DNA from: Chitinophaga sp. LS1 | GTDB lineage: Bacteria; Bacteroidota; Bacteroidia; Chitinophagales; Chitinophagaceae | DNA: 64,000 bases | Assembly (NCBI RefSeq): GCF_034274695.1 | Contig: NZ_CP128362.1 | Location: 4,218,501 to 4,282,500 of the forward strand | Direction of reading: 5' to 3' | Translations under genes and position numbers: made by a program | Shown: in pieces, positions 22,755 to 43,393 of the stretch | How the letters are laid out: each line of letters starts with the position of its first letter | Numbering within the stretch: position 1 is the first letter of the stretch | Notes under the pieces: model-generated | Told to the model about the DNA's origin: nothing | The model's input: only the letters and a program-made list of their open reading frames with translations | Databases searched by the model: none

Positions 22755-22774
22755 TAGGTTTAAATATTGATACA

Positions 22775-26459: not shown

Positions 26460-27179
26460 TTATACAAGAATTTTCTCCATTACATGGGCAGCTACTTCCA
26501 GCAGCTCGGGCTGGGTATTATGCCTTGGATGGGCTACTTTTACATACATCTCATGACAAACACTGGTAGGGCGGCTTGTCAAAATGATGATCCGGTCAGC
26601 TATCTGCACTGCCTCATCAATATCGTGGGTCACCATGACGAGTGTCTTGGGTCGCTTATCCAATAATCGGATAAGTTCCTTCCTGATTTCCATGCGGGAC
26701 AGATAATCCAGGGAAGAGAAAGGTTCATCCATGAAAATGATATCTGAAGTACCCGCCAATACCCTGGCAAGTTCCACCCGCTGCTTCATCCCGCCGGACA
26801 ACTCATGGGGATAATATTTTTCAAAGCCTTTCAGATTGACCAGATTGATCAGGTCCTGGATTTCTGCATCCCGACGTACAATATCTTTCATGTGACGCAG
26901 GCCAATACCCACGTTTTCTGCCACCGTCAGCCAGGGAAACAGACCGCCCTGTTGGAAGACCGTACGTACGGAACTAGTAACCTTTACCCGACCGCTGGCA
27001 GGTTGCAGATACCCCGTTAACAGGTTGAGCAAAGTCGTTTTTCCACACCCGGAAGGGCCTACAATCACTACCCTTTCCCCACGCCTCACCTCGATAGTGA
27101 TATTGTCCAGTACTTTCATGTTGCCGTATGTAAAGGAAACATTCTCCAGTATAATATGTGCGTGATCATTGTTTACCAT
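26460..27179 (-). CDS. ABC transporter ATP-binding protein (SsuB/TauB-like)
   Basis: 239 aa. Walker A GPSGCGKTT, Q-loop VFQQGGLFPW, signature LSGGMKQR, Walker B IIFMDEPFSSLD and the H-loop VTHDIDEA. Overlaps the permease gene by 14 bases, showing coupling. Confidence 0.95.
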   Translation of the reverse strand: MVNNDHAHIILENVSFTYGNMKVLDNITIEVRRGERVVIVGPSGCGKTTLLNLLTGYLQPASGRVKVTSSVRTVFQQGGLFPWLTVAENVGIGLRHMKDIVRRDAEIQDLINLVNLKGFEKYYPHELSGGMKQRVELARVLAGTSDIIFMDEPFSSLDYLSRMEIRKELIRLLDKRPKTLVMVTHDIDEAVQIADRIIILTSRPTSVCHEMYVKVAHPRHNTQPELLEVAAHVMEKILV

Positions 27180-27924
27180 AACCCCATTTTAAATTATCAG
27201 CTTTTGTAAATCTTTGGAATAATTTGTCAATGCCCGTACCAATGGTGCCGATCGTAATCATATAACAGACGGCTGTATCCAGTCGTAAGCCGTTTCTGGC
27301 ATCCCATATCCCATATCCCAATCCATCCTGACAACCGACCATTTCTGCGGCTACAATGACCACCCAGCTGATACCATAGCAAATTCTCATAGAAGTCAGT
27401 AATTGCGGCATAATAGCCGGCAACGTGACCTTAAACAGCAGTTCTGTACCGTTATAGTCATGATCTCTGGCCACACGGAAATAAATATCCGGGATCGTAG
27501 CAACAGCTGATATTACTGATAAGGTAAGCGGAAAAAAGGTGGCCAGGAATATCAGGAAAATAGCTGGCTTGTCACCGATATGGAACCATAATATCGCAAA
27601 AGGTATCCAGGCCAGTGGAGATAAGGAACGGAAGAAATTGAGTATCGGCAGTATAGCCGTATTCCAGTTTCGGTTCCTTCCCAACCACAGCCCGATAGGG
27701 ATAGCCAGGCATGCTGACGATAAAAATCCGATGGCAACTCTCCATAAAGAAGCAACAATATCATTCAATAAGCGAGCGGTGGAGAGCTCCTCCTGGAAAC
27801 TTTTTACCACGGACAGCGGAGAGGGGAATGCATATTCAGGGAAGATCTTTAATAAAGAAATCACCTGCCAGCAGACTAAGATAAACAGGATAGCCAGCGG
27901 TGCCAGCCAATTTTTATGTATCAT
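27166..27924 (-). CDS. ABC transporter permease (SsuC/TauC-like)
   Basis: 252 aa, about six membrane spans, BPD_transp_1 family. The coupling loop contains EMVGCQDGLGYGIWDARN. Starts 82 bases after the SnoaL-like gene, which is the widest gap inside the minus-strand run, so a separate promoter is possible. Confidence 0.93.
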   Translation of the reverse strand: MIHKNWLAPLAILFILVCWQVISLLKIFPEYAFPSPLSVVKSFQEELSTARLLNDIVASLWRVAIGFLSSACLAIPIGLWLGRNRNWNTAILPILNFFRSLSPLAWIPFAILWFHIGDKPAIFLIFLATFFPLTLSVISAVATIPDIYFRVARDHDYNGTELLFKVTLPAIMPQLLTSMRICYGISWVVIVAAEMVGCQDGLGYGIWDARNGLRLDTAVCYMITIGTIGTGIDKLFQRFTKADNLKWGYGKQ

Positions 27925-28006: not shown

Positions 28007-28453
28007 TTATTCTTCCCCGAAATTATCGTAATAGGTATAATCTCCTGAAATCTTGCCGTCCTGGAATGTAAAAATTGTACAGATAGGTAATTCAAAAGTG
28101 GTACTGTCAGGGGCAGTGCCTTTGGATACAAACTCTACGATGACATGCTGATCACCTGATGGGTACATTTTTACTATCTCATCCCTGACATCCGGGAATG
28201 CCTGCTGCAAGCCACTGTACTTTTCAATAACCTGGGCGGTGGTCTGTTTCACTAATCCACTTCCTAATGAGGGATCCTTGAATTCAGCTGTGGGCGTGTA
28301 CATTTCAGCCATCTTTTTCCAGTCGTGGTTATTAAAATGCTCGAAATACTGTTTTACCAGGGCCTCATTGTCGTTACTCATAGTTGTCGATTTTTGGTTG
28401 TTACATGAAATGAATATCCACATTACAAAAAACAATCCTGATACTTTCTTCAT
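28007..28453 (-). CDS. SnoaL-like lipoprotein
   Basis: 148 aa. Lipobox FISC (Cys17), then a SnoaL/NTF2 fold (EALVKQYFEHFNNHDWKKMA, FQDGKISGDYTYYDNF). SnoaL-type folds act as polyketide cyclases, or only bind ligands. Lipidation places it in the envelope, so a binding or protective role is as likely as catalysis. Lies 15 bases after the receptor gene in the enediyne-cassette run. Confidence 0.8.
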   Translation of the reverse strand: MKKVSGLFFVMWIFISCNNQKSTTMSNDNEALVKQYFEHFNNHDWKKMAEMYTPTAEFKDPSLGSGLVKQTTAQVIEKYSGLQQAFPDVRDEIVKMYPSGDQHVIVEFVSKGTAPDSTTFELPICTIFTFQDGKISGDYTYYDNFGEE

Positions 28454-28468: not shown

Positions 28469-30871
28469 TTATTTCATACGTGTCTTTTCGTCATTGCTGA
28501 TCCATGCGGGCTTCTTCACTTTTACTTTACCTTTGTTGATGAAGTTGTATTTTAACGTCAGTATCAGTTGCCGGTTGTCTGCTTTCTCCTGGTAATTGGA
28601 TTTCCAGTAGACGCCCTGCAACGTTCCTACATACTTTAAGGTTTTCAGGAAATCGCTCACACTCAGCTTTAGCTCAATCTTATCTTTCAGTAGTGTCTTT
28701 TTGGCGCCGGCTGAAAATGAACAGATTGTTGAAAACTTAAACTGTCCTTGTACGGATGGTGTTATTAATGTATTACTGAATTCCAGTGATGTTCCTTTGG
28801 GCAAAGCAAAAGAGTGTTGGGTGAACAACTGAAGGGTAACACGTGAGTTGTCCGGATAACCCAGTACTTTCGCTCCTGTTTCAGCAAATTTCTGGTAAGC
28901 TAAATTTACATCAAAATAGCTTTCCCACCACTTTGTAATATCTAATGGTACCGCAATATTCAAATCAATATTAGTAAGGTCTCCGATATTGGCCGGTTTC
29001 AGCTTCTGTTCTTTGGTGTCTACATTTTGAAATTGTGCGGTAGTAAAGTAATTAGTCGTACGGAATACGGTGAGGGCTGCTGTGTACATTTGCTTCCACT
29101 GTGCATTCACGGTGATTTTGTTGGTAAATGCCGGTAATAGCGAAGGATTTCCTTCCAATGCCACGTAAGGATTTACATAGTACACAAAAGGATTGATATC
29201 CACATAATTAGGACGGGCAATTCTTCTCGCATAAGCTGCCCCGACTTCCCAGGTTTTGTTGAGCGGGTAATTTAAAGAAAGACTGGGGAAAAGTCCGGAC
29301 ATATCCCGCGAAACACGAAACTGATTGACCGTTGAATTCCCATTTACCTTGTCATCCTCATATCTCAAACCAGCCTTAATCTCCAGTTTTTTGATATGTG
29401 TGTTAACTTCAACATAAGCTGCTATAAGATTTTCCTTATACCTGAAAGCATTTGATTTCAGGCTATCCATTTTAAACTCATTGTTGATATAGTCACTGTA
29501 TTCCACATTGTTCTTTGTAGCCACATGACTGTATTTAAGTCCTGCATCTAACTTTGTCCCTTTTTTCAGATTCACTGCATAATCCAGCTGGGTGGCCCAT
29601 ACCATGATATTCGTAAAGGAATTATTACGTACCAGCTCCTGCCAGTTATTTCCTTTTGTATATTCATTGTAGTAATCCCCCAGATTATTCTTGTGACTGG
29701 ACAGATAATCTGAACTAAATGTAATAGTGTTCGCAGAATCTATACTATTGCGATATACCAGATTCACAGCTTTCTGCCCGGCACTATAATGCTCGATAGC
29801 AGTAGAGCTGACGTCGGTAATTGTATCATTGGTTTTCAGCCGGATCGCATTGACCTGATCGACTTTTCTGCTGTTATTACTACCACTGTAAAAGAGGCTA
29901 ATGGATTGCCTGGCTGTAGGTTTTATATCTATGCCCGCTGAATAGTTATGTACCTTATCCGGGATGTTCTCAAAAAATACATTTTGCTCCAGTGAGGAGT
30001 TCTGGTAGAATGATAGCTTCTCATGAATGTCACCCAGCGACTCCTTATAATTTACGCTATAGTTGGCATACAATGAATAGAATTGCTGTCCTAATGAAAG
30101 GTTGATACCAGCATTGTGTTTGGGATAATATTTATCATATCCCAAAGATGACCCTGTTCCTACACTCAGGTTTCCTGCCAGACCGGTAGCGATCTTACTT
30201 TTTGTCCTGATATTGATGACAGCCGTCCCTTCAGCATCGTACTTAGCGGAAGGATGTGCGATCACCTCTATGCTTTTGACAATATTGACAGGAATTGTCT
30301 TCAGGTACTGCATCAGGTCACCTCCTTTCATATATACAGATCTGTCATTGACGGTCACCAGCACTTTCTCCTGACCATTTAACAAGATGTTCTGCTGATG
30401 GTCTATAAATATGCCTGGCAAATTACGGATCAAGGAAATTAAATCTGATTGGGATGAGCTGATAATGCCGTTCTCCACGTTGAATATAAGCCGGTCTTTT
30501 TCTTTTACAAACAGGGGTTTGCGTGCATGATGAGCAACTTCAGATAATTGAGCAGAACTTTTTCCCAATAGCACATTGATGTTTACTCCGGGTGTGACAG
30601 CCATTTCTTTTTTTTCAAAAGAGAGATGGCTGATACGGATAAAATAGTCTTTCTCTTTTAAATCCTTAAATGAAAAAGCACCATTTATATCAGACACCGC
30701 CACTGCAACATAGCTGGTATCCGTTGTTTTCAACAGGGTGATAGTTGCCAGCTCAATGGGGCTGCCACTTTCATCCGACACCTTCCCACTCAGGATGGAT
30801 TGGGCACTGACTTGTTGTAAAGTTATTAATAGTAAACAGGTAAATATGATTTTCATAGTGCTAATTTTCAT
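28469..30871 (-). CDS. TonB-dependent receptor-like outer membrane protein
   Basis: 800 aa. Signal peptide (IIFTCLLLITLQQVSAQS), regulatory sandwich (ILSGKVSDESGSPIELATI), plug (LIRNLPGIFIDHQQNILLNG, HPSAKYDAEGTAVINIRTK) and a long beta-barrel. It belongs to the Bacteroidota outer membrane beta-barrel group, some members of which export or bind peptides rather than import siderophores. Its ATG overlaps the stop of the thioesterase gene (ATGA), so it is translated with the polyketide genes. Confidence 0.9.
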   Translation of the reverse strand: MKISTMKIIFTCLLLITLQQVSAQSILSGKVSDESGSPIELATITLLKTTDTSYVAVAVSDINGAFSFKDLKEKDYFIRISHLSFEKKEMAVTPGVNINVLLGKSSAQLSEVAHHARKPLFVKEKDRLIFNVENGIISSSQSDLISLIRNLPGIFIDHQQNILLNGQEKVLVTVNDRSVYMKGGDLMQYLKTIPVNIVKSIEVIAHPSAKYDAEGTAVINIRTKSKIATGLAGNLSVGTGSSLGYDKYYPKHNAGINLSLGQQFYSLYANYSVNYKESLGDIHEKLSFYQNSSLEQNVFFENIPDKVHNYSAGIDIKPTARQSISLFYSGSNNSRKVDQVNAIRLKTNDTITDVSSTAIEHYSAGQKAVNLVYRNSIDSANTITFSSDYLSSHKNNLGDYYNEYTKGNNWQELVRNNSFTNIMVWATQLDYAVNLKKGTKLDAGLKYSHVATKNNVEYSDYINNEFKMDSLKSNAFRYKENLIAAYVEVNTHIKKLEIKAGLRYEDDKVNGNSTVNQFRVSRDMSGLFPSLSLNYPLNKTWEVGAAYARRIARPNYVDINPFVYYVNPYVALEGNPSLLPAFTNKITVNAQWKQMYTAALTVFRTTNYFTTAQFQNVDTKEQKLKPANIGDLTNIDLNIAVPLDITKWWESYFDVNLAYQKFAETGAKVLGYPDNSRVTLQLFTQHSFALPKGTSLEFSNTLITPSVQGQFKFSTICSFSAGAKKTLLKDKIELKLSVSDFLKTLKYVGTLQGVYWKSNYQEKADNRQLILTLKYNFINKGKVKVKKPAWISNDEKTRMK

Positions 30872-31308
30872 TCAGCAAGGGTATAAAATGACAGCTCTGA
30901 TACAATGTATTCGGGTATATGTGTCGGGTGTAAGCGTTCTTCTTTTCTGGTAAAGAAACCTATTTCATGAGTACCCTGCGCGACAATGTTTTCTCCCCTG
31001 AAGTATTCAAATTTTAGCTTTAGCTTATTTTGAGATATACTGATGAGATACATTGCGATCAGGACCTTGTCGAACGCGTGTAATTCTCCCACATAGTTAC
31101 AGCTACAGCCCATGGTAACAAGTGCAAGCCCGTTCTCCATATCCTGTAGGACCTGTGGTGTTTTTTCCAGCAGAAAATGTTCCCGGCAGGTACCCTGCCA
31201 TTTGACATAATTAGAAAAATAAACGTTCCCGACTACATTTGTTTCTTCAAAGGTGACAGTATGTAAGTATTCAAATCTTTTCACGATAGACGTTTTTATG
31301 GATATCAC
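30868..31308 (-). CDS. Enediyne-type hotdog thioesterase (E10/TEBC)
   Basis: 146 aa. Hotdog-fold acyl-thioesterase with the pattern of the enediyne group: YLHTVTFEETNVVGNVYFSN then YVKWQGTCREHFL. In known systems (CalE7, SgcE10) this enzyme releases the polyene chain from PKSE. Its start lies 38 bases inside the end of the PKS gene, and its place directly after PKSE is the canonical one. Confidence 0.93.
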   Translation of the reverse strand: MISIKTSIVKRFEYLHTVTFEETNVVGNVYFSNYVKWQGTCREHFLLEKTPQVLQDMENGLALVTMGCSCNYVGELHAFDKVLIAMYLISISQNKLKLKFEYFRGENIVAQGTHEIGFFTRKEERLHPTHIPEYIVSELSFYTLAE

Positions 31309-34300
31309 CTAATACTGCTGTGAATACGGCTTTTCCATCCACCTCCTTTAATTTGAAAGCGATAGACAGGATGGAGGATTGGCCACATTTGTAATAATGT
31401 ATAGCAGATGATTCTTCTTTTTCAAACAGGATTGTTTCCAGCAGATTAAGACCCGCCTTCTTAATGCTCTCCATGATCCCCCAGATGCGGGTTCCGGCTA
31501 CGGAAAGCTCTTCTCCGGTATGGGTACTGACAAACCGGGCCAGTTCATAACGTTCTTTCCCCAGCAATGTTTCTTTAAAAGAAGTTACTTTTTCAAGATC
31601 ACAACCTATTTTATAACCAGCTTGTAACTGCAGGGTCAGGTCTTGCAGGTGGGTCCTGGAAACAAAGCTATTTTTGAGAGAGGGCTTCCCATCATAGCGC
31701 CGGAGAATGTAGTCCTGTTGACGCCAGTCCGTGCTATCCTGCTGACCGCTGATTTCATCCATACGGCGCTGGGCAATGACTTCAATCAGTACCAAAGGAA
31801 GTACCGGATCTTTTTGTGCTGTGAAAGATTGGAAGGTTACCTGGTCCCAATATTCCACGGGCAGCCCCTCTTCATCCAGCAGCAATAGATCATAAGTGTA
31901 TATATTGCCTGATTTTGATATTTCTTTTGCTTCGATGCGGTGAACAGTTTTTGTACTTACCGTATATATTCTTCTCACACCTGTTGGCAATAATCTGTAA
32001 TCAGGTACACAGGCCTGTATACAATGTAAAGCAGCATCTCTTGCTACAGGAGAGGTGGAGAGTATTTCCGGGGAAAGAAACTCGCCAAAGTAGTTGATGT
32101 TGGTAGGAGGTTGTAAGGTTACCCCGCATTGATATGGAGATAAAGCATCATAATGATCAATCACCTGGAAAATGCCCCGGTGGAAAAGCAACTGACCATA
32201 GAGGTCTTCAGCGACATTCAGATCCGGCATATTACTGTCAGAAAGAATAAATGGCTTGATCGCGGCCGGTTTTACAGTGATACATGTTTCAAAATGATCT
32301 TTGCCGTAACCAGTGGCGCTGCTTCTAAGTACAATTTTTATCACATCTGGCGATAAGCGTAAAGCGATCACCCTGATGGTCTGTGTCTCGCCTTCTTCCA
32401 ATATGATCGGGTAACTGAACCTTGTATCAAGGAAGATATAATTGCTCTCTGCAGGGGAAAAAGCAGCAGCTACCTGCCGCATACATTCCAAGCCCATGAC
32501 AGCAGGAAACACATATCCCCCATTGAGCATGTGGTCTTTCAGGTACAAATCATTGATAGCAGACAGTTCAAACTCAGTTATTAGTTCAATGCCGGGATAT
32601 AACAGTCGCACATGTCCCAGAAAACGATATAAGGGCAACGTAAGCGGTGGTGTCTTCAGCGTCTCCATTTTACCGTAACGCCCGGAGATAATGAGGTTAT
32701 GTCCGGAAGGGAAATTTTCCATCCACGACATAAATATATCGACGCCCTTTTCCAGGCTGATTGGTTGAATGCCTTGTTGCATCAGGTTTCCCAGCACTCC
32801 CAGATGTTCTCCCATACCAGCACCGCTCCACACAGACCATTCTGCATTCAAAGAGAAACATGCTGGATGAGTAGAAGCATAATTAGCAACTTCTTCTCTG
32901 AGCCATTCATTGGCCAGTGCATAGTCGGCATTACCATTCATACCACTTTCTGCTATCACCGATCCAAAAGTGATCAGTAATTTAAGGTCACTATTTACCA
33001 GGTTCCGGAACCCATCTATCTTCACATTAACAGTGGCATGCAAATCATTAGCAGTTAATTTGAACCATGGAGTAGGTATGTTCCTGCCTGCGCCATGTAT
33101 AACGCCTGTGACCGGGCCCAATCTCACACTAGCTGCCTGTATCACTTTACTGATCGCTTTTTCGTTACAGATATCCACACTGTGGTATTCATAAGTGATA
33201 CCCGCTGCATCAAAGCGTTCCAGGCTTTGGCGAAGGCGATCGTCATTGGTTGCACGACCGATCAATAATAACTTTACACCATATTTGGTAGCTAATGATA
33301 AAGCGCATTCCGCTGTAATACCCTTTGCGCCACCGCTGACTAATATGACATCCTTCTCTGTGAGCGGCACCTGGCCACGGGAAGGATAATTAAATACAGG
33401 GCAGAACATAGGTGTATAGCGAACACCGTCTATATACTTTACTTCCGTAAAGCCTTTATTGGCATTTACTTCACTGTTGATAAGAGTTGCGTCTGGTAAA
33501 ACGTCAGTATTGATAACGACACAGCGTAGTCCTTTTTTATCAAGGAAAAGGCTTTTGACAAATCCGGTTACCAATGGCCGATCCTGTATAATAACCAGTA
33601 GATCCTTCTCCTGCAGAGATGTTAAAACGCCTGGCAGCATGTCCAACACATCGCTATGTGAACAACCTATAAGATTTAGGTAAATACCATCAGCCCCAGG
33701 CTGGGAGTCCACTTTAAGCGGTGTGTTGATATATGATGTATGAAAGAAATGTACCCATGGCTCAATGCCCGGCAACTGATCTGTTTGCGGTGCATCATTC
33801 ATTTGGGAGACAGACAATACAGCTACCACTTCCGCAATACTGGCATTGGCATATTCGGTTGGAATGCCTTGCATGACAATTTTCTGGCTGGAAGCAAATC
33901 CCGCAATCAATTGGCCAACCTGTAAGGAATTCAAATGGAGGTCATCCAGAAAGCGGGCATTGATATCAATCTCTGCTACTGGTAATTCCAGCTTTTGTGC
34001 GATCAATGCGCTGAAAGATGCCAGTAGTCCGGTATCCTGTTGAGGCGCTTCTACTGGCATATTACCGACAGTGATGGAAGTATCGTCCTCACAGGGATTG
34101 GCTATGAACCTGGCCTGCCAGTTGATGTCAAATTGCTTAACTGGCCGGTCTTTGATGAAGATATCAAGCTGTATATCTGTACCGGCAGTCCAGATCAGGC
34201 CTGCAGTTTCACACAATCCCTGTGTGGTTTGACCATCCATCGTAATGGCAGCCACTGGTTTCTTCGTAAGATCTCTGGCAATTGGTGTAAGCGTTTTATC

Positions 34301-36706
34301 TCCTCCTACCTCCACCCATAGATCCACCAAATCATCAGCCTGTTGAAAAGCAGGCATAAATAAAACAGGATTGCTCAGCTGTCGTATCAGGTTTTCTTTC
34401 ACATCATCTGACGAGCTGACAGTAGAGATCATCTTCCGGGAAGGCTTTTGTATGGACAGTTCGCTGACCACTTCACGTAAGCGATCTTCGACCTTTTTCA
34501 TCCTGCTGTTGTGAAATGCATAACGGACAGGTAATAACATCGAAGGAACCTTTTGTGAGAGCAGGTAGGCTTTACAGGCATTGATATTATCAGCAGTACC
34601 TGATAAGACTGTTTGTGTAGGTGAATTAACAGCTGCAATTTCCACATTCTTCACTGTTATGCGGTCAGCAGGTAGTGGAACTATGAGCATCAAGCCGTCA
34701 ATACCTGGGGTATCGTGCATGATCTCTCCCCGTTTTTGGGCCAGCTGTATAGCTTGTTCTTCACGCAGATAACCACTCCAGTGCAATGCTGATATTTCGC
34801 CCAGGCTATGACCTATGCCCACTTCCGCCTGCACACCTAATTGTTCCAGGATGCGTAATCCAATCATCGATGTACCGACAATGCCAGCCTGGATCATATC
34901 CAGCTGCTGACTGTTTTCCTTGCCGGCAGGATAACTTTCAGGAATACCTATTTGCTTAAAGCGTCCTGCTGTAGCAAATCGTTTACTTCCCTGACCGGGG
35001 AATAAAAACCCGATACGGGATTTAGTGGTGCCTGCATTGTAGTAAAATCCTTTATTTTCTATAAAATCATGCCCCTGCGTTATCAGGTGTATCAATTTCC
35101 CGAGTTTCATTGAGAGTTCTGCCGGCGAAGCAGCTACTACCGCTGCTCTGAATGAAGCAGGTTGTAATTGTTTCATCAGGTGCGTACTCAGGTCACCCAG
35201 TTCTGCAAAAGACAATGCCCCTGCATAGGTGTTGACCATATCCAGTTGCGCCAGCAGTAACTCCGGAGTGGCGGCTGCAAGCAGGAATAGCTCGGTGTCC
35301 GGGGCAGCAGGGATTGCTACACTAACCGGCATTGTGGGCTGATATTCTTCTATAGTGATATGTGTATTGATACCACCAAACCCCATTGCACTCACACTTG
35401 CTCTCATCGCTTCCTTCTCCGCATAAGGGATGGCTTTAAATGGAAGGTTCAGGGCTGTTCCATCCAATAAGTTATTTTTATTCCGGCAACCGGTCACCGG
35501 GGGGATGATCCGGTTTTTAACGACATTAATGATTTTAATAAACCCGGCAATACCTGCAGCAGCTTTTGTATGTCCTATATTCCCTTTTACAGAACCGATA
35601 TAATGCGCGGCAGTTGTATTTCTAATTTTGCCAAGCAGGGTCTGTAATTCAACCTGGTCACCTACTGGCGTACCCGTACCATGTCCTTCAAAATAAGCGA
35701 CTTTATCCGGCTGATAACCTGCCTTGGCGTACGCTCTTTCCATGGCCAGCGTCTGACCATTGACAGAAGGGCGTGTCAGCCCTCCCTGTCCATCAGAAGA
35801 AATTCCATATCCTTTGATAAGACCATGGACCTTTAAATTATTGGAAATCGCAAAAGACAGCGTGGAAAGGACCACAAAACCACATCCTTCACCCGGCCAG
35901 AAGCCATTGGCATCTTTATCATAGATCAGCATCTCCTTCGAGGCAAGAGCACCAGCTCTTGAAAAACCTACCAGCTCAAAAGGATCCAGGCTCAGGTCTA
36001 CGCCTCCTGCAATACAGACTTCATTATCTCCTGCGGCAATATGCCGGCAGGCATCTATCACCGCCAGCAAAGAAGAGCTGCAGGCTCCATCGACTGTATA
36101 ACCACCACCGTGGAAATCGTAGTAATTACATATTCTCCCCGCGATGGTATTGGATAAACCACCCGCCAGCGAATCTTCGAACATTCTGGGGAAAGCAGAC
36201 TTATAATCTGCCTCCATATCCTGCATAAAGGTCGCCAGCATATCCGGGTTCAGATCCAGCTTATGCAGGTTGGCCATGAGCTTTCGCTGTACATAAGGCC
36301 AGCGTAAACGCATTGTATTCGCTCTGGAAAATTCCCCTGTCAGCGTATTCCCTACATACACGCCTACCTGATCTTTCGGGAGCTGGTTATTTTTCAATAA
36401 ACCCGCATCCTCCATAGCTTCAGAAGCTACATCCAGGGCCAGCCAATGGGTAAGGTCTGTGCCCCGGAACACTTCTCCTGATATATTATATTTCTTCCTG
36501 TCAAAGGCATAATTACTCAATACGGCTGCCATAACAGTACGTATTTTATCATCATCCTTATCTGAAAAATACGCGGCGTTCAATCTCACATCCGGAATTT
36601 TCCGGAAGGCTCTTCGCTGCGCCAGGATATTTTCCCAAAACTCCTGGTAGCTATTGGCATCAGGATATTTACAGGCCATTCCGATAATCGCTATTTCATT
36701 TTTCAT
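31271..36706 (-). CDS. pksE: Enediyne-type iterative polyketide synthase PKSE
   Basis: 1811 aa, KS-AT-ACP-KR-DH-PPTase. KS: DGACSSS with Cys209, EGHGTGT His342, GNIGH His379. AT: GHSLGE with Ser634. ACP: DDLHLNSL with Ser927. KR: VSGGAKGITAE (about 1123-1133) and Tyr1262/Asn1266. DH: H1392 in DHMLNGGYVFP (HxxxGxxxxP). The C-terminal phosphopantetheinyl transferase has GCDLE (Asp1703, Glu1705) and RIWGIMESIKKAG (Glu1746). This order and length are those of the self-activating PKSE enzymes that make the linear polyene precursor of enediynes. All catalytic residues checked are present. Overlaps its neighbours on both sides. Confidence 0.95.
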   Translation of the reverse strand: MKNEIAIIGMACKYPDANSYQEFWENILAQRRAFRKIPDVRLNAAYFSDKDDDKIRTVMAAVLSNYAFDRKKYNISGEVFRGTDLTHWLALDVASEAMEDAGLLKNNQLPKDQVGVYVGNTLTGEFSRANTMRLRWPYVQRKLMANLHKLDLNPDMLATFMQDMEADYKSAFPRMFEDSLAGGLSNTIAGRICNYYDFHGGGYTVDGACSSSLLAVIDACRHIAAGDNEVCIAGGVDLSLDPFELVGFSRAGALASKEMLIYDKDANGFWPGEGCGFVVLSTLSFAISNNLKVHGLIKGYGISSDGQGGLTRPSVNGQTLAMERAYAKAGYQPDKVAYFEGHGTGTPVGDQVELQTLLGKIRNTTAAHYIGSVKGNIGHTKAAAGIAGFIKIINVVKNRIIPPVTGCRNKNNLLDGTALNLPFKAIPYAEKEAMRASVSAMGFGGINTHITIEEYQPTMPVSVAIPAAPDTELFLLAAATPELLLAQLDMVNTYAGALSFAELGDLSTHLMKQLQPASFRAAVVAASPAELSMKLGKLIHLITQGHDFIENKGFYYNAGTTKSRIGFLFPGQGSKRFATAGRFKQIGIPESYPAGKENSQQLDMIQAGIVGTSMIGLRILEQLGVQAEVGIGHSLGEISALHWSGYLREEQAIQLAQKRGEIMHDTPGIDGLMLIVPLPADRITVKNVEIAAVNSPTQTVLSGTADNINACKAYLLSQKVPSMLLPVRYAFHNSRMKKVEDRLREVVSELSIQKPSRKMISTVSSSDDVKENLIRQLSNPVLFMPAFQQADDLVDLWVEVGGDKTLTPIARDLTKKPVAAITMDGQTTQGLCETAGLIWTAGTDIQLDIFIKDRPVKQFDINWQARFIANPCEDDTSITVGNMPVEAPQQDTGLLASFSALIAQKLELPVAEIDINARFLDDLHLNSLQVGQLIAGFASSQKIVMQGIPTEYANASIAEVVAVLSVSQMNDAPQTDQLPGIEPWVHFFHTSYINTPLKVDSQPGADGIYLNLIGCSHSDVLDMLPGVLTSLQEKDLLVIIQDRPLVTGFVKSLFLDKKGLRCVVINTDVLPDATLINSEVNANKGFTEVKYIDGVRYTPMFCPVFNYPSRGQVPLTEKDVILVSGGAKGITAECALSLATKYGVKLLLIGRATNDDRLRQSLERFDAAGITYEYHSVDICNEKAISKVIQAASVRLGPVTGVIHGAGRNIPTPWFKLTANDLHATVNVKIDGFRNLVNSDLKLLITFGSVIAESGMNGNADYALANEWLREEVANYASTHPACFSLNAEWSVWSGAGMGEHLGVLGNLMQQGIQPISLEKGVDIFMSWMENFPSGHNLIISGRYGKMETLKTPPLTLPLYRFLGHVRLLYPGIELITEFELSAINDLYLKDHMLNGGYVFPAVMGLECMRQVAAAFSPAESNYIFLDTRFSYPIILEEGETQTIRVIALRLSPDVIKIVLRSSATGYGKDHFETCITVKPAAIKPFILSDSNMPDLNVAEDLYGQLLFHRGIFQVIDHYDALSPYQCGVTLQPPTNINYFGEFLSPEILSTSPVARDAALHCIQACVPDYRLLPTGVRRIYTVSTKTVHRIEAKEISKSGNIYTYDLLLLDEEGLPVEYWDQVTFQSFTAQKDPVLPLVLIEVIAQRRMDEISGQQDSTDWRQQDYILRRYDGKPSLKNSFVSRTHLQDLTLQLQAGYKIGCDLEKVTSFKETLLGKERYELARFVSTHTGEELSVAGTRIWGIMESIKKAGLNLLETILFEKEESSAIHYYKCGQSSILSIAFKLKEVDGKAVFTAVLGDIHKNVYREKI

Positions 36707-37613
36707 ATGTTAACCCGCTTGAAGAAATATTTAACCGTGGCGATAATGCGTATTTAGCGGCGCCTACCTTTGGAATACTGAGCAGTATGCCTCTCAGGAT
36801 ACACACAATAAACAACGCAAAGAACAACCCGAATACCACATGGAAAATCATCAGCACACCATACACCATGGCTACAGAAAATGCATACAGCATTTGTTCG
36901 GTAATACCGGAAGGGGTAGTGGCAGGATCAGAGATCATATAAAATGTGAATAACAGAAACGCCACACCAGTACAAGGTAGTAAAGCAGCTGTCAGTGATA
37001 CATCAAAGAAGATGCTTCTTAGCACGGCCTGTGCCACAAAGCCAGTGAGCCAGGCAAGGATCAGTGGTATTCTGCCGGTGAATTTGAAATTCAGGAATGT
37101 TCCAGCTGTCACCAGAATAGCAGGAATGATCCAATCTCCCCAGCCAGTCACATTTTCCGTGAACATATATGGGGGTGAAATGCCGACCCATGAAAACAGG
37201 ATCAATGTCAGTGCAATGCCTGTATTGGAAGGATTAAGGAAATGTCTTGATTTGCCATTGATGATGATCCTGAAAATCACTTTTGAACTAATAGCTGCTG
37301 CAGATGCAAATACTATTGGTGATAAATCGCTGTTGGCAAATAGCAACATAGAAGTAGCCATCCCTGTAATATGTGCTGGCAACAGGAAGTTGACAAGATT
37401 TTTCCAGCTACCGCTAAAACGGGGGGGCTTATGATTAGCGGTTGCAAAAAGGTATTCATACAACAATTCCAGTGAATAGGTAGTAGCTAATGCTGCCAGC
37501 GGATATGCCCATGATTGTTCAAAACCAAGGAAGAAATGTCCGGCAATATTGAGTACAGTGATAGCTAGTGCAAATCTTCTTAACGCGGGAAGCGGGTTAT
37601 ACACTTTGTCCAT
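36696..37613 (-). CDS. unbU: Enediyne cassette membrane protein UnbU (E5)
   Basis: 305 aa, about eight membrane spans, related to RnfD/NqrB subunits (KSRHFLNPSNTGIALTLILF, YMISDPATTPSG). UnbU is one of the three conserved proteins of unknown biochemical role in the minimal enediyne cassette. Overlaps the PKSE start by 11 bases; UnbV ends 5 bases upstream. Confidence 0.9.
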   Translation of the reverse strand: MDKVYNPLPALRRFALAITVLNIAGHFFLGFEQSWAYPLAALATTYSLELLYEYLFATANHKPPRFSGSWKNLVNFLLPAHITGMATSMLLFANSDLSPIVFASAAAISSKVIFRIIINGKSRHFLNPSNTGIALTLILFSWVGISPPYMFTENVTGWGDWIIPAILVTAGTFLNFKFTGRIPLILAWLTGFVAQAVLRSIFFDVSLTAALLPCTGVAFLLFTFYMISDPATTPSGITEQMLYAFSVAMVYGVLMIFHVVFGLFFALFIVCILRGILLSIPKVGAAKYALSPRLNISSSGLTYEK

Positions 37614-37618
37614 GTAGA

Positions 37619-39460
37619 TTAGTTTGATAGGGTGATCGTATTCCAGCCTTCTTTAGCGGCAAATACCTGCTGTTGGCTTTTTCCACTATTATCCAGGTAT
37701 TGTATTTCGAGATGCATATGCTGTGTGGTGGCATTCTTCAGGCCAAAGAAGATATCAGTTGTGTTTCTGCCTGAATGGCCATTGCCACCATCGACAAAGC
37801 TGGTTTGCTTTAACTGGGTGCCTTCATATAAACGGACAATGGCGCCAATGGCGGGTCTTAAACAGGAATCATTTACCGGTAGCAAAACCCTTAAGCCGAT
37901 AAAACCATTCTTACCTTTGTAGTTGTTCTGGTAGTAATAGGAAGTCTCCCATTGGTTGGCGACTACAAAGTCCAGGTCTCCATCATAATCCAGGTCACCC
38001 ACTGAGATGCCACGGGATATCTGTGTATCATCCATACCCAGTTCAGCAGCGAGATCATAGAATTGACCGGATGCGGACCTGACAAAAAAAGGATGGTGAT
38101 AATGCCCGGACAGGTCATCTCCCAGCTTGAAATTGGGCCATGAAGCCGGGTAGGCCAGCAGATCATCATTACCCAAAGCGAGCTCCTGCAGCTCCGGCCA
38201 GCGATCGGCAGTACCTTTCATAAAACCGGTTGCCTGAATGGCTTCGTTGACACCATCATTGTTGAAATCTCCCAATTTCGAATCCCATCCCCAGGAACTT
38301 CTTGATAAACCCAGTTCTTCACTTTGGTTCACGAAGGGCGCAATGCCTTTGTTGAATTTGTCTATCTCACCAGTGTTGATGAAAGCAAAATGCGATTCCT
38401 CCAGTGCATATTCAGCGGCAATATTGCTGACATAGATATCCAGTAAGCCATCGCTGTTGATATCGCCGATGCCGGCGCCCATTCCTTTATATGAGTCCTT
38501 GCCTAAAACGCTGGAAGCAGTAGTAGTCAGTTTACGTTCACCATACAGTAGCTTAAATTTTAACCGGCCGGGAACAGACTGGTTCAGCAGGAATTTATCC
38601 GGACCAAAGTCATTGGCCAGGTATAATTCGGGCAGCATGTCACCATTAAGGTCAACAGCAGCAACAGCCAGTGTCCAGTCTTCCGGGTTTTTAATACCAT
38701 CAGACCATGTTTTATCTTCAGTAAAGACAGCGTTTTGCAGTTCAACACCTTTACACAGGAAGAAGTGATTTTTCCCGCCATTTGCTGCTCTTGACATGGA
38801 ATGCTGCATGGTCTGGTCCTGGTCAGGTGCTACATTGTCCAGTACACGGGAGCCATCAGGGAAGTAGTTGGTGATGAGGATATCCACTTTGCCATCGCCG
38901 TCAAAATCAGCGAGTGTAGCTGCATTGGAGAACCATCTTTCACCGCTTGTCACCAGTTCCGTCTCTTTGAAGCCAATGTTGTCAGCGTAGAAAATAACAG
39001 GCGTTCTGCCCCAGTAATAGACGAGTATATCGGTTTTGCCATCAGCATTGAAATCATAAGTGAGGGAGCCCATTGGGGCCATTGTAGCTGAGTCATAAGG
39101 CAGGAGCTTTACATCCAGTCTTACAGGTGGCTCCCGTTTTTTGATAGAAGAGATGAGCACCGCATCAAACCGGGGGTCTACGTGGATGATATCATCACTG
39201 CGACCATCATTGTCGAGATCAGCAATCGTCACCGCAGCACCTACAGAAGAGATCCATGCGGCTATATCTTTATATTGCGGGTGTACATCCCGGATTAATT
39301 TCGGCGTTCCTTCCGTCACAGGCAGGTCCATTCTCGAAAAGGAGAAATCAGCGGCCAGCGTTGTTCTTTCTGCTGGTGTAAGCTGTGCTTTTCTGGCAAA
39401 AATGAAACATACACAAACGACGATGACGGCCAGTGCTTTGATCAGGTAATTGTTAATCAT
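37619..39460 (-). CDS. unbV: Enediyne cassette FG-GAP/ASPIC protein UnbV (E4)
   Basis: 613 aa, signal-anchor N-terminus (ALAVIVVCVCFIFARKA). At least seven FG-GAP/VCBS calcium-type repeats (DLDNDGRSDDIIHV, DFNADGKTDILVYY, DFDGDGKVDILI, DINSDGLLDIYVS, DFNNDGVNEA, DLDYDGDLDFVVA) form a beta-propeller. The C-terminus is the ASPIC/UnbV domain (RLYEGTQLKQTSFVDGGNGH). Likely extracytoplasmic. Conserved in enediyne loci; reaction unknown. Confidence 0.93.
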   Translation of the reverse strand: MINNYLIKALAVIVVCVCFIFARKAQLTPAERTTLAADFSFSRMDLPVTEGTPKLIRDVHPQYKDIAAWISSVGAAVTIADLDNDGRSDDIIHVDPRFDAVLISSIKKREPPVRLDVKLLPYDSATMAPMGSLTYDFNADGKTDILVYYWGRTPVIFYADNIGFKETELVTSGERWFSNAATLADFDGDGKVDILITNYFPDGSRVLDNVAPDQDQTMQHSMSRAANGGKNHFFLCKGVELQNAVFTEDKTWSDGIKNPEDWTLAVAAVDLNGDMLPELYLANDFGPDKFLLNQSVPGRLKFKLLYGERKLTTTASSVLGKDSYKGMGAGIGDINSDGLLDIYVSNIAAEYALEESHFAFINTGEIDKFNKGIAPFVNQSEELGLSRSSWGWDSKLGDFNNDGVNEAIQATGFMKGTADRWPELQELALGNDDLLAYPASWPNFKLGDDLSGHYHHPFFVRSASGQFYDLAAELGMDDTQISRGISVGDLDYDGDLDFVVANQWETSYYYQNNYKGKNGFIGLRVLLPVNDSCLRPAIGAIVRLYEGTQLKQTSFVDGGNGHSGRNTTDIFFGLKNATTQHMHLEIQYLDNSGKSQQQVFAAKEGWNTITLSN

Positions 39461-39461
39461 A

Positions 39462-40397
39462 TTAAGCGATTAGGGTCTTTGAGTATAATTCTTCAGCGAT
39501 CATTTTTCTCCAGGAGTAGTATTGCGTAAAAGCATCCTGTTGCGCATCCACTTTCAGCAGTGCCCGGTCAGTTATTTCTGCTACAGAGGACAGGCTATAA
39601 CCAGTGATAGCGGTAATGGTGTTATTAGTATCTGCGGTGACCGTTTCAGCCCTTTCCCTGGCTTTGGCAGCAAATGCTACACCCTGTAAAAGGAAAGGCA
39701 GATGGGAGCCCGTATGCTCTTTTAAGCGCTGTAATTCGGCTGGTTGAGCACCGCCGGCATATACAGCAGCCAGTCCAACACCAGCCCACAGATCGGCATG
39801 ATAAAGGGCAGGGAATGCATAGAGCGTTTTTGCCACGTTATCTACCTCTGTACCGCAGGTGAACCAAAGGGCACGTCCTACACCCTGATAAAAAACATGT
39901 GTGGCAGCCTGGGAGAGTTTAGGCAATATTTGCTGCCGGATTATTTTTTCAGTTTTAAAATAGGCTTCGTGGAATCCATATCCATCGATGATCAGCCATC
40001 TTAAGAGGGGATCATAACGGGATAATATGTTTTCTACATGAAAAGGCAGTCTGGCATAAGCCCATCCTATACCAACATGCAGCATATATATATGATGGTT
40101 GCCTTTACCACTGAGAAAATCAGGAATGCACTTGTTCTGTTTGGCTTTAAAAGCATCTTTCACAGCCATGCCCATAGCAGCACCTTCATAGGAAAAACCT
40201 CTGAACAGGTTTGTCTTCTGGTCCAGCGATCGGCATAACACGGCCTGGTCATCAATATCCAGGCAATGATGGTATCCATCCAGGAAAGCAATACCTATAT
40301 TTTCCAGTAAGCTGGCAGCATGGGCATCCTTTACAAAAAATCCTCTCTTTTTCAGGGAGGCTTCTTTGTAGGATACCTTGAACAGGTTGTAGATCAT
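39462..40397 (-). CDS. unbL: Enediyne cassette DUF1702 protein UnbL (E3)
   Basis: 311 aa, DUF1702 family. Marks: FSYEGAAMGMAVKDA, HIYMLHVGIGWAYARLP, DGYGFHEAYFKTEK, YQGVGRALWFTCG and GVGLAAVYAGG. No signal or membrane span. It is the first of the five core enediyne genes, one base from unbV and overlapping the DUF1028 gene by 4 bases. Biochemical role unknown. Confidence 0.93.
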   Translation of the reverse strand: MIYNLFKVSYKEASLKKRGFFVKDAHAASLLENIGIAFLDGYHHCLDIDDQAVLCRSLDQKTNLFRGFSYEGAAMGMAVKDAFKAKQNKCIPDFLSGKGNHHIYMLHVGIGWAYARLPFHVENILSRYDPLLRWLIIDGYGFHEAYFKTEKIIRQQILPKLSQAATHVFYQGVGRALWFTCGTEVDNVAKTLYAFPALYHADLWAGVGLAAVYAGGAQPAELQRLKEHTGSHLPFLLQGVAFAAKARERAETVTADTNNTITAITGYSLSSVAEITDRALLKVDAQQDAFTQYYSWRKMIAEELYSKTLIA

Positions 40398-41392
40398 AGT
40401 TTTTCAATTCTTTTTAACAGCTCAGATGGTACATTCAGCACGCCTGCGTTTACAATACGGGGCAGCATTTTAATTTTCCAGACAGGATCCTGGCGGAACA
40501 CCGTTTTAAACACATCGAGGGCACGATCATCCATGCCTTTATTAGCCAGTTCTACAGCATACCAGAACTTCATCTCGCTATTGCCGGGATTTAATTTTTC
40601 AGCCTTATTAAAGGCTTCATCAGCAGCGTCGGGATCGTTTTTTTCCAGGTAGTAGTATCCCAAATTCACAGCATCGTAGGCAGTTTTAATGATATAGATC
40701 CTTTTCAGTTCTTTGATGGGATCGGGGTTATCTTCCACCCTGATATCAACTTTACGGTCTAACCATATTTTTCCGGTAGGCTTCTTTCTTACAACGAGCA
40801 GGCAGGCTGATTGCTTTCCCCGGATATCACCACCGGCGGCTTGAGCGGCCTCCAAAGCAGCGATCATTCTAGCGGCCAGCGGACCATCCGTTTGTTCATA
40901 AGCAGCAGCCATCATTTTCCACACGTCTTTACTTTCAGCGGTATTTGCCTGAACGGAGTAAAACCTACCCTGCTGATGACCGGCTTCCGCTACGCACATT
41001 TTACCTGTACTGACAGCGATATTGCCATTGGTATCGAGAATAGCCAACTGTCTTATATCTCTGGCAGGATCTGCCTGCAACAGTTTGTGCAATACACTGT
41101 CTGGCGATATACCCTTTTTCAGCAAGGCCATGCCATTAGGCCCAAAGCCAATATTCACCACAGCCTGTGTAGCGATAATCCCGGCCCCGGCTTCACCCCA
41201 TGCTACAGTAGTACCTACTGAGAACCAATGGGACTGAACAGCTATACCCATATCTCCTGTTTCCGGATCAAATGCTACAATCGAGAATGTATGCGCAAAA
41301 GGTTCTTCATTAATGTATTGTCCATGCATCCATTGAGGATGTATGAGCAGGTACATACAGATGAACAACACATGGAATCTGTATTTCAGCAT
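40394..41392 (-). CDS. Secreted DUF1028 (Ntn-hydrolase-like) protein with TPR tail
   Basis: 332 aa. Signal peptide (YLLIHPQWMHGQ), then a DUF1028 domain with the usual opening FSIVAFDPETGDMGIAVQS, and ATQAVVNIGFGPNG. DUF1028 is a putative Ntn-hydrolase fold. A tetratricopeptide-like pair follows from about residue 245 (GYYYLEKNDPDAADEAFNKA). Substrate unknown. I know of no enediyne locus with this gene. Its 4-base overlap with unbL makes co-expression very likely; proteolytic processing or self-protection is only a guess. Confidence 0.85.
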   Translation of the reverse strand: MLKYRFHVLFICMYLLIHPQWMHGQYINEEPFAHTFSIVAFDPETGDMGIAVQSHWFSVGTTVAWGEAGAGIIATQAVVNIGFGPNGMALLKKGISPDSVLHKLLQADPARDIRQLAILDTNGNIAVSTGKMCVAEAGHQQGRFYSVQANTAESKDVWKMMAAAYEQTDGPLAARMIAALEAAQAAGGDIRGKQSACLLVVRKKPTGKIWLDRKVDIRVEDNPDPIKELKRIYIIKTAYDAVNLGYYYLEKNDPDAADEAFNKAEKLNPGNSEMKFWYAVELANKGMDDRALDVFKTVFRQDPVWKIKMLPRIVNAGVLNVPSELLKRIEKL

Positions 41393-41401
41393 AGGAATTA
41401 A

Positions 41402-41698
41402 TCAAGCAAGTAAGGATTTCATTTTAAAGGCCAGTCCCATACTCCCGTCAATGTTGATTTTCCCCTCCATCAATGCCAGTATGGGATTGAGCTTTCCGCT
41501 TTTCATTTTATAAAAGGTGTTCAGATCCGTTTTAACGACACAGTTTGCCTCAACATCATCCTGGCTAATAATATTTTTTTCCCCTGTACCGTCAATAAGG
41601 AAGATATGTTCTCCCATTACAAGCTTCATTTTAGCTTGAATGGGATCCATATCTTCTACCTGAACTCTCATCTGGTCGAAGATTTCAGTTAATTCCAT
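41402..41698 (-). CDS. SCP2 sterol-carrier-like small protein
   Basis: 98 aa, a compact SCP2-type fold (VEANCVVKTDLNTFYKMKSG, then LNPILALMEGKINIDGSMGL). SCP2 proteins have a hydrophobic tunnel for lipids or acyl chains. In this context it could carry the polyene or a lipophilic product; that is inference. It sits 10 bases from each neighbour. Confidence 0.85.
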   Translation of the reverse strand: MELTEIFDQMRVQVEDMDPIQAKMKLVMGEHIFLIDGTGEKNIISQDDVEANCVVKTDLNTFYKMKSGKLNPILALMEGKINIDGSMGLAFKMKSLLA

Positions 41699-41708: not shown

Positions 41709-42296
41709 TTATGCTGCGCAAAAGATGATTTCGATGTTATTATTTTTTGTAACCAGGTTATTACTTTCTATCTGGTACAGGTTAGCGCTTGTGGCAGAGA
41801 ATGTTTCCAGTTGTGAGCAGGCCCTGGCAGATGCATCTTTGATGGCTAACTCACCATCGAAATAAATATTATACTCGAAATTCATTTCCATTGTAGAAGG
41901 GAAGTCCTGGTTGAGGTAGTGGGATTTTACGCCACTTTTGAGGTTATTGGTTACTTCAAAACGAACTTCTTTACCTAGTAAATTGCTGTATGCGCTACCG
42001 TTCCAGCTATCGAGTGCGATGTCAATATAGCGGAGGCCATCACGTTTTTTTCCGGGGTTTTTAGTTGTGAAGTGGAGCGTGCCATCTAACACCAGTACTT
42101 CTGTGTGTCCATTCTTAGTGATGGCAAAAGTTGGATTTGTATTGGTGTAATAGGCGGCAGTCGTAGGGAATGTCTCCTGGGATTCGCCTATGGTAACTTT
42201 CATTTTTTCCTTTTTGGGGAAGGAGAATGCGCCAGGTACTAATGGGGCACCAGCAAGGAAGATGGCCATGTTTTTACCAAAATCTCTTCTTTTCAT
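41709..42296 (-). CDS. Tat-type secreted protein of unknown family, paralogue A
   Basis: 195 aa. The start MKRRDFGKNMAIFLAGAPLV looks like a twin-arginine signal (RR-D-F-G). The mature part is mostly beta-strand and aligns along its length with the protein at 42899-43393: FPTTAAYYTNTNPTFAITKN versus FPSANTFLINSNPIFLITRK, then YIDIALDSWNG / HVGVDVKYWEA, LNQDFPSTMEMNFEYNIYFD / LNKDFPSKLEFNMEYEVMVN. It ends in CAA. I do not recognise the family. Confidence 0.75.
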   Translation of the reverse strand: MKRRDFGKNMAIFLAGAPLVPGAFSFPKKEKMKVTIGESQETFPTTAAYYTNTNPTFAITKNGHTEVLVLDGTLHFTTKNPGKKRDGLRYIDIALDSWNGSAYSNLLGKEVRFEVTNNLKSGVKSHYLNQDFPSTMEMNFEYNIYFDGELAIKDASARACSQLETFSATSANLYQIESNNLVTKNNNIEIIFCAA

Positions 42297-42308: not shown

Positions 42309-42860
42309 TTAAGGATTAGACATACTCAATACATGATTGATAACGGAGATCACGTCTTTTAATAATGGCATGACGCCAAACGTTTCTTTCATTCCTTCAA
42401 TCTCTATTCCCCGACGGGGTTCCATGATGTAGTGTCCATCGTTCTGCAGCACTTTGAGGTTGCGCTGAACAGTGTTGGCATACCACATGTTTTCGTTCAT
42501 CGAGGGAACAAAAATTACCGGGGCCTTGGCAGCTACGATGGTAGTAGATATGAGGTCATCACAAATACCATTGGCAGCTTTTGCTATGATGTTAGCAGTA
42601 GCAGGCATTATCATGATGAGATCAGCTTCCTGTGTAAGTTTGATATGAGGCACGATGGTATCAACACTTACATCGTAAGTGTTGGTAAATACTTCATTAC
42701 CTGAATGTATTTTTAATGCATATGGAGTGACAAACTTTGTAGCATTATCTGATACCATGATGAAGACGCGTGCATTCAATTCTTTCCTTATCTGCAGGAC
42801 ATAAGAAGGCATTACAACCGCAGCGACAGCCCCGGTAATGCAGACTAAAATGGTCTTCAA
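42309..42860 (-). CDS. HFCD-family flavoprotein (EpiD/PPC-decarboxylase-like)
   Basis: 183 aa. Flavodoxin-like HFCD fold: ILVCITGAVAAVVMPSYVLQ, MIMPATANIIAKAANGICDD, then the diagnostic P-S-MN-xx-MW in VPSMNENMWYANTVQ. Family members bind FMN and oxidatively decarboxylate cysteine residues, either in phosphopantothenoylcysteine (CoaBC) or at the C-terminus of peptides (EpiD, TvaF). The usual N-terminal His (in G-S-I/V-A-A region) is not clear: the segment reads GAVAAVV. It lies between two paralogous genes, which may be its substrates or partners. Confidence 0.85.
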   Translation of the reverse strand: MKTILVCITGAVAAVVMPSYVLQIRKELNARVFIMVSDNATKFVTPYALKIHSGNEVFTNTYDVSVDTIVPHIKLTQEADLIMIMPATANIIAKAANGICDDLISTTIVAAKAPVIFVPSMNENMWYANTVQRNLKVLQNDGHYIMEPRRGIEIEGMKETFGVMPLLKDVISVINHVLSMSNP

Positions 42861-42898: not shown

Positions 42899-43393
42899 TT
42901 AACAGGCGCAGGCAACTACATCAACAGTAGTGTCTTCTCCCAGTGTCATGCTTTTTCCGGCTACACGGAACATATCATTAGGCTTTGGCGGGAAGCTGTT
43001 GATCTGACCTTCAGCAGAGCCACTGAGGCCGGATTTGATTACTTCACCATTTACCATTACCTCGTATTCCATGTTGAATTCGAGCTTAGAAGGGAAGTCT
43101 TTGTTTAACTGAAGGGCAGTAACTTTACTATTGTCGCCCAGGTCTGTGATTCTGAATCCGATATCACAACCTAATAATTTGCTGGTAGCTTTTGCTTCCC
43201 AGTACTTAACATCCACGCCCACATGGCGGTTGCCGCCATCATTTTTTTTAGGGTCAGATGTTTTTACTTCCATTTTAGCATCAAAAACGAGAATTTCACG
43301 TTCCCCTTTACGTGTAATCAGGAAAATTGGATTGGAGTTGATAAGAAAAGTGTTTGCGGAAGGGAACATTACTTCATTTGAAGATGTCGACAT
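42899..43393 (-). CDS. Cytoplasmic protein of unknown family, paralogue B, C-terminal Cys
   Basis: 164 aa, no signal peptide, beta-rich. Homologous to the protein at 41709-42296 (see there for aligned segments). It ends VDVVACAC, so its last residue is Cys, next to a flavoprotein of a family that can decarboxylate C-terminal Cys. First gene of the 15-gene minus-strand run. Function unknown; a substrate or carrier role is inference only. Confidence 0.75.
   Translation of the reverse strand: MSTSSNEVMFPSANTFLINSNPIFLITRKGEREILVFDAKMEVKTSDPKKNDGGNRHVGVDVKYWEAKATSKLLGCDIGFRITDLGDNSKVTALQLNKDFPSKLEFNMEYEVMVNGEVIKSGLSGSAEGQINSFPPKPNDMFRVAGKSMTLGEDTTVDVVACAC

Follow-up and report, generated by a model that had tools for sequence, protein, structure and literature searches.

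What does an enediyne-type gene core do in a member of the Bacteroidota, and does it act by itself? Enediynes are DNA-cutting antitumor compounds known mainly from actinomycetes, and the question is raised here by a locus in Chitinophaga sp. LS1 (order Chitinophagales, family Chitinophagaceae), whose genome is a single contig of 8,674,373 bases (NZ_CP128362.1). We analyzed a window of 64,000 nucleotides (positions 4,218,501 to 4,282,500 of the contig; coordinates below are those of the window unless a locus is named). It contains a block of 15 genes on the minus strand (43393-25422), in which the five genes of the enediyne core, encoding UnbL, UnbV, UnbU, the polyketide synthase (PKS) PKSE and a thioesterase, lie between five companion genes upstream (43393-40394) and five downstream (30871-25422), with gaps of no more than 82 bases throughout. 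We assign a probability of about 0.5 to the reading that this block likely makes an enediyne-type compound, which would be held by a predicted β-barrel protein resembling DynF; the hold would be through a C-terminal cysteine that a flavoprotein of the HFCD family likely decarboxylates. All 15 genes are also present, rearranged, in G535, a genome from another genus of the same family. They are listed here with identities to G535 and to L046, a cassette from a Planctomycetaceae metagenome-assembled genome (MAG).

42899..43393, minus strand: U164, which opens the block; matches no Pfam family; DynF-like β-barrel by prediction; C-terminus Cys-Ala-Cys
42309..42860, minus strand: HFCD-family flavoprotein, a predicted peptidyl-cysteine decarboxylase without the CoaB half (PDB matches and motifs)
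41709..42296, minus strand: U195, paralogue of U164; twin-arginine N-terminus (MKRRDF); C-terminus Cys-Ala-Ala
41402..41698, minus strand: SCP2-domain protein (PF02036, E 2e-10); 43% in G535
40394..41392, minus strand: DUF1028 and TPR protein (PF06267, 3.1e-66; 2imh, 1.5e-18) with an N-terminal signal-like stretch; 46% in G535
39462..40397, minus strand: UnbL/DUF1702 (PF08012, E 1.3e-94), in the order position of E3
37619..39460, minus strand: UnbV, with FG-GAP repeats and UnbV_ASPIC (E 1.7e-7), in the order position of E4
36696..37613, minus strand: UnbU, RnfD-like membrane protein, E5 in some sources
31271..36706, minus strand: PKSE, with ketosynthase (KS), acyltransferase (AT), acyl carrier protein (ACP), ketoreductase (KR), dehydratase (DH) and phosphopantetheinyl transferase (PPTase) domains in this order
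30868..31308, minus strand: enediyne-type hotdog thioesterase, predicted E10 type (4HBT_2 in Pfam; PDB matches)
28469..30871, minus strand: outer-membrane β-barrel (OMP_b-brl_3, weak Plug match), overlapping the thioesterase gene by 4 bases; 30% in G535
28007..28453, minus strand: SnoaL-like protein with a lipoprotein-type N-terminus; 42% in G535
27166..27924, minus strand: ABC importer permease; 56% in G535, 51% in L046
26460..27179, minus strand: ABC importer ATPase; 39% in G535, 45% in L046
25422..26438, minus strand: substrate-binding protein of NMT1/SsuA type; 58% in G535, 53% in L046

The original prediction, a first reading of this DNA, had described the five core genes in this order on one strand with tight spacing, and open reading frame (ORF) coordinates and Pfam matches agree: 1 base separates UnbL from UnbV and 5 bases separate UnbV from UnbU, and the overlaps are 11 bases between UnbU and PKSE and 38 between PKSE and the thioesterase. 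The family searches proposed with it as a check matched DUF1702 and ASPIC. UnbU scored 21.5 bits against its nearest Pfam family, NQR2_RnfD_RnfE, under the curated cut-off of 27.7, but of 7996 candidates scored, 5481 proved to be relatives, some of them carrying the name UnbU or E5 in their source records, and it is 49% identical to its counterpart in the C-1027 locus. The top PDB matches of the thioesterase were 5vpj (4.6e-34) and 9ccr (4.5e-33), both titled only Thioesterase, followed by CalE7 (9e-30), the ACP-polyene thioesterase 4i4j (5.9e-29) and DynE7 (3e-28); generic 4HBT reached only 1.6e-5 in this search. By sequence, the enzyme groups with CalE7 and DynE7 and is assigned to the E10 type. 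A second ASPIC-domain match in the genome (G000:C1:8511600-8511800) lies in an open frame of 1118 residues.

In PKSE, Pfam detected the ketoacyl-synthase, AT, KR and DH domains; the ACP and PPTase gave no Pfam match and their residues were established by alignment with SgcE, the PKSE of the C-1027 locus. An alignment of the window protein, SgcE and three others bore out the claim that all six domains keep their catalytic residues. The residues that we take to serve catalysis in each domain are invariant relative to SgcE (KS C209, H342 and H379; AT S634 and H732; ACP S927; KR S1249, Y1262 and N1266; DH H1392 and D1557; PPTase D1703, E1705, E1746 and K1750). In the C-1027 locus itself (Streptomyces globisporus C-1027, NZ_CP013739.1), DUF1702, CRTAC1/UnbV, RnfD-like UnbU and PKSE genes stand in the same order as in the window, the thioesterase gene lies further along, and SgcE is 36% identical to the window PKSE (99% query coverage) with the same catalytic residues. 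The window differs in what follows, as the genes after SgcE encode SgcE6 and a P450 and, at a greater distance, a GMC oxidoreductase and others, and no relative of U164, HFCD, SCP2 or DUF1028 was found within the 45.8 kb examined.

A KS phylogeny had been proposed as a further check. It was obtained with a quick IQ-TREE run with Shimodaira-Hasegawa approximate likelihood ratio test (SH-aLRT) support only and no bootstrap; 12 of 139 KS rows were dropped first (copies, L044, the short L140 and the outgroup L138) and 34 of the 55 Actinomycetota rows were then thinned, leaving 93 rows, with SgcE the one reference recognized as characterized. The 76 PKSE rows, including SgcE, split from 17 PfaA-like or other KS rows with SH-aLRT 100, which places the window PKS inside the enediyne clade. 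Within it, the window KS belongs to a 28-row clade (SH-aLRT 99) with G535, G199, L021 and P0135 (a protein from a Flavobacterium MAG), which are all the other rows known as Bacteroidota; the 23 further members are metagenome proteins with no stated taxon, and L034, titled FCB group bacterium, falls outside. Because the 22 Actinomycetota rows group in a separate clade (SH-aLRT 100), the window cassette is, judged by the KS set, no recent import from an actinomycete; several rows of the tree have odd composition or long branches. The tree, the family searches and the thioesterase matches thus agree that this Bacteroidota genome has an enediyne-type core, and the block would likely make an enediyne-type compound.

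Among the best 80 loci, PKSE relatives come from Cyanobacteriota, Chloroflexota, Planctomycetota, Acidobacteriota, Verrucomicrobiota and Pseudomonadota, and occurrence outside actinomycetes is therefore no surprise by itself. The earlier statement that almost all characterized loci stem from actinomycetes may be correct, but the gene family is far wider. All five core genes are found at 55 of 81 other PKSE loci and at least four at 64, many contigs ending early. The distribution of the core is patchy: DUF1702 occurs in 5 of 99 relatives (window genome counted, two of the five weakly) and in 2 of 395 phylum-drawn genomes (own included); within the genus, 3 of 79 genomes have UnbL, namely the window's own, G503 of the same species and the sister species G045. 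Weak DUF1702 relatives (25-31%) lie at L014:11333-11986 (G068), L015:12389-12883 (G066) and L016:11802-12494 (G097), and no further window gene matched in the stretches examined near them. A scan of viral contigs with UnbL gave zero relatives.

The companion genes set this locus apart. In G535 the order is SnoaL (reversed), core, U164-HFCD-U195-SCP2-DUF1028, outer-membrane barrel (reversed) and ABC permease-ATPase-binding protein, the SnoaL-like and outer-membrane barrel genes lying on the opposite strand. Identities run from 30% for the outer-membrane barrel, whose orthology is less sure because the family is common, to 65% for U164, the most conserved protein of the locus, with PKSE at 34%. 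This conservation with the core in spite of rearrangement shows that the ten companions are part of the pathway. Of the "minimal cassette" originally proposed, the five-gene core therefore stands, but not its standing alone, since ten flanking genes recur with it in G535. Closer to the window, G045 gives a single DNA alignment of 96% identity from 19336 to 43852; synteny ends just upstream of U164, where G045 has an AraC-type regulator and an aldo/keto reductase. Window positions 21041-25191 and 25422-46693 are 99.7% and 99.6% identical, respectively, to [Flexibacter] sp. ATCC 35208 (L020), from which the 230 bases between 25191 and 25422 are missing. A blastp search (E ≤ 1e-5) of the flanks available at the 81 other PKSE loci found no counterpart of any of the five upstream companions. 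U164 and HFCD occur together in the window, L020, G045 and G535 and are both missing at the remaining loci searched (up to 10 kb from PKSE, contig ends permitting). The Bacteroidota cassettes of G199 (L017) and G068 (L012/L021; same order as LS1) share the five core genes, their order and the KS clade with the window; unlike in the window, the companion set was not found there. In G199, PKSE and thioesterase form a single ORF of 2010 residues with the thioesterase C-terminal (L017:7420-13452). Close to the G068 cassette, where no U164 was found, there is a gene for a YceI-type barrel (L012:5824-6369), perhaps a stand-in carrier.

U164 has no Pfam match at E ≤ 10 and 18 relatives (protein clusters) from 5.8 billion proteins. 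Its C162-A163-C164 tail is invariant in 19 of 19 sequences, even at the 42% identity of the remotest relative, P0258, an Arg- and Lys-rich protein that may come from outside the Bacteroidota. The predicted U164 model (predicted local distance difference test score, pLDDT, 86.2) has DynF (6ubl) as its best solved fold match, and for the U195 model DynF was the top match in VIA and a weaker one in Foldseek; both predicted models show the DynF-type eight-stranded barrel. DynF, of the dynemicin pathway, is likewise encoded at an enediyne-type PKS locus, and we place it with DUF6073 (PF19550) because the DUF6073 protein of G199 (L017) matches it at 5e-32; G199 thus has a sequence-level DynF relative, unlike the window. 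With HMMER filters on, the DUF6073 profile matched neither U164 nor U195 at E ≤ 10; an unfiltered search of a 22-sequence set gave about 9-12 bits, and profile comparison in hhalign gave 16% over 61 columns. The U164 profile found one unrelated match (E 1.8) among PDB sequences, and the U164/U195 profile nothing significant beyond the window's own relatives among the ORFs of 83 loci; its second-best outside match (L023 2502-3278, E 7.9) was later recognized as a DUF6073 protein, which is suggestive only. DUF6073 is present beyond actinomycetes. Its members near PKSEs lie at L017:937-1752, L058:18517-19779, L039:6592-7293, L023:2502-3278 and L030:5115-5804, and at these five loci, unlike the window, no HFCD relative was seen. 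Clustering of ORFs at GC-rich loci for DynF orthologues was dominated by spurious frames, and none of 11 ORFs of 111-319 residues ending in CxC at loci other than L010 and L020 appeared gene-like by eye.

Six of the 18 U164 clusters are tied to PKSE relatives by exact agreement in the length of the longest contig (341882, 131528, 129732, 19175, 782032 and 23219), and six sit on contigs shorter than 3 kb; P0255 matches the G535 protein. The linkage is perhaps not universal, because six of the nearest 12 PKSE clusters (P0122-P0133) have no matching U164 entry (contigs 194161, 530875, 14099, 21225, 13401 and 65317). Counting the window's own genome, U164 occurs in 2 of 394 genomes of the family and 1 of 395 of the class, setting aside a weak match in G1082 (E 3.4e-4) that was dropped with no window gene within 30 kb. 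A search of 199 Planctomycetota genomes, run without a positive control, found none.

The HFCD flavoprotein matched 6jls (putative flavoprotein decarboxylase, 4.5e-24), 7cfu (DNA/pantothenate metabolism flavoprotein, 1e-23), CoaBC (1.8e-22), EpiD (3.7e-20) and MrsD (9.3e-20), scores that lie close together, and its best curated profile is CoaBC/Dfp. It has the motifs PHI (with the conserved His), PATAN and PSMNENMW and no CoaB half, and in family, His, PATAN, PxMNxxMW and stand-alone form it resembles EpiD, MrsD, 6jls and 7cfu. A separate full-length CoaBC is encoded elsewhere in the genome, so the block enzyme is not the housekeeping copy. Phosphopantothenoylcysteine decarboxylase (PPCDC) requires a substrate-clamp cysteine to reduce its enethiol, and EpiD-like enzymes are without it; the only cysteines of the window protein are 7 and 100 (6, 99 and 112 in G535), and the window enzyme would therefore stop at the oxidized enethiol. 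The candidate substrate with a C-terminal cysteine is the adjacent U164, and HFCD likely modifies its invariant tail, to judge by these sequence features. The known peptide substrates of HFCD decarboxylases are short precursor peptides, whereas this candidate is a predicted folded barrel of 164 residues.

Among the remaining companions, the SCP2-domain protein is likely a carrier of hydrophobic ligands. The ABC triad has relatives at 1 of the 81 other PKSE loci, L046, where permease, ATPase and binding protein (L046:870-3575) lie between UnbL and UnbV, with UnbU and PKSE coming next. An ABC transporter that is part of the cassette in two phyla probably delivers a substrate to the pathway. NMT1/SsuA-type binding proteins take anions and small organics. 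According to the available passages of PMC11069151, iodide is required for tiancimycins, where it forms an iodoanthracene. Our guess is that iodide might be the cargo here. By eye, no export signal is evident in the window proteins U164, HFCD, SCP2, UnbL, PKSE and thioesterase, and signal-like or lipoprotein-like starts are present in DUF1028, UnbV, the SnoaL-like protein and the binding protein. The U164 proteins of G535 and P0242 have a hydrophobic N-terminal extension (first-start reading) that the window U164 lacks. The twin-arginine start of U195, also read by eye, is present in both genera, the G535 counterpart starting MKRREF and ending CGA.

From these elements we propose that PKSE and the thioesterase release a polyene known from other enediyne loci, which UnbL, UnbV and UnbU would turn into an iodinated polyyne. 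Cytosolic U164 would take the chain into its barrel, and HFCD would oxidatively decarboxylate the last cysteine of U164 to an enethiol, which would anchor the reactive chain or shield it. U195, a second barrel exported folded through twin-arginine translocation (Tat), would deliver the product to the periplasm, and the ABC importer and outer-membrane barrel would import a needed small solute, possibly iodide. Cytosolic assembly with completion or storage outside would, we infer, keep a DNA-cutting product off the chromosome. The core, catalytic residues, KS clade with SgcE, companions, Cys-Ala-Cys tail and HFCD motifs are read from sequence, and the remaining steps are inferred; the iodinated-polyyne step is taken from general background and the title of Gui et al. 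2024, who reportedly describe a diiodotetrayne intermediate. The fullest version, a hybrid of PKS and ribosomally synthesized and post-translationally modified peptide (RiPP) chemistry in which the U164 enethiol covalently holds the iodinated polyyne inside a DynF-like barrel, U195 exports the resulting protein-tethered enediyne by Tat and a dedicated ABC importer feeds iodide, is improbable in all its parts together.

The finding that weighs against a cyclized enediyne is the lack of a tailoring set among the window ORFs scanned. As originally predicted, no P450, E6/E7-type oxidoreductase, sugar or aromatic-acid gene, and also no other E6-E11-type (E9 and E11 included) or accessory-moiety gene, was found among 47 of the 66 window ORFs of at least 100 residues and the SCP2 ORF; the search was limited to the window, and the other 19 ORFs overlie larger ones in other frames. 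An uncyclized product, be it a linear chain (polyene or polyyne) or an enediyne precursor at which the pathway stops, with the companions handling the hydrophobic chain, is therefore a serious rival, and the genes that follow SgcE make the contrast plain. We nonetheless regard it as possible rather than probable: the available passages of PMC11069151 describe the same five genes as indispensable for a tiancimycin-type enediyne skeleton, with the exact roles of E3, E4 and E5 uncertain, and in an established enediyne pathway a DynF orthologue has an early role (PMC8725005). That the neighbors are unrelated to a plain core cassette and share its strand by chance is very improbable; 81 other PKSE loci, two of them from Bacteroidota, do without the five upstream companions, but all ten recur with the core in G535, reordered and with two on the other strand, and the L046 cassette contains a related ABC triad.

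The remaining alternatives concern what HFCD and the barrels do. HFCD might, like PPCDC, decarboxylate a small-molecule cysteine conjugate of the polyketide to give a thiol trigger, the U164 tail then being a disulfide or metal site or something else. CoaBC/Dfp as best curated profile and the near-top CoaBC score favor this, as does the fact that some enediynes have thiol or polysulfide triggers; the invariant cysteine of the adjoining U164 and the joint presence or absence of HFCD and U164 speak against it, and we consider it doubtful. It is similarly unlikely that U164 and U195, instead of being assembly carriers, are enzymes (cyclases, for instance) or trap the product for self-protection. 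Sequestering apoproteins exist for 9-membered enediynes, and the strong conservation of U164 would fit such a role, but without Sgd15, the DynF orthologue, no intermediate was detected (PMC8725005), which suits an early function. The same work, from 2022, describes the route from PKS product to enediyne core and the role of DynF-type proteins in it as mostly unknown.

The locus is a compact version of a likely enediyne pathway, with the core and a small conserved set that includes two predicted DynF-like barrels and a cysteine-decarboxylase-family flavoenzyme. If the carrier reading is right, it would join enediyne assembly to the C-terminal cysteine chemistry of ribosomal peptides. The linked importer is a testable candidate for the means by which producers acquire scarce solutes, iodide for example. 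A direct genetic test is possible in a Gram-negative species with a deposited culture, [Flexibacter] sp. ATCC 35208. A literature search on enediynes in Bacteroidota and Chitinophaga, made up mostly of titles and with subscription papers largely outside it, yielded no account of the locus, nor do the available passages of PMC8382821 and PMC12136951 report it. In the accessible main text of PMC9248904, a survey of Bacteroidetes clusters that cites a monobactam cluster of ATCC 35208, the word enediyne is absent.

Elsewhere in the window, a carotenoid set at 12767-17298 comprises a MerR/B12-type regulator, an amine-oxidase-family desaturase, phytoene synthase and lycopene cyclase, and G045 lacks 12414-17187 at the corresponding syntenic position. 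IS21-type genes and three successive tyrosine integrase genes (55924-59174) occupy 54207-60026, and near the window end (61149-63992) lies a gene for a protein with TOTE conflict-system primase and helicase domains.

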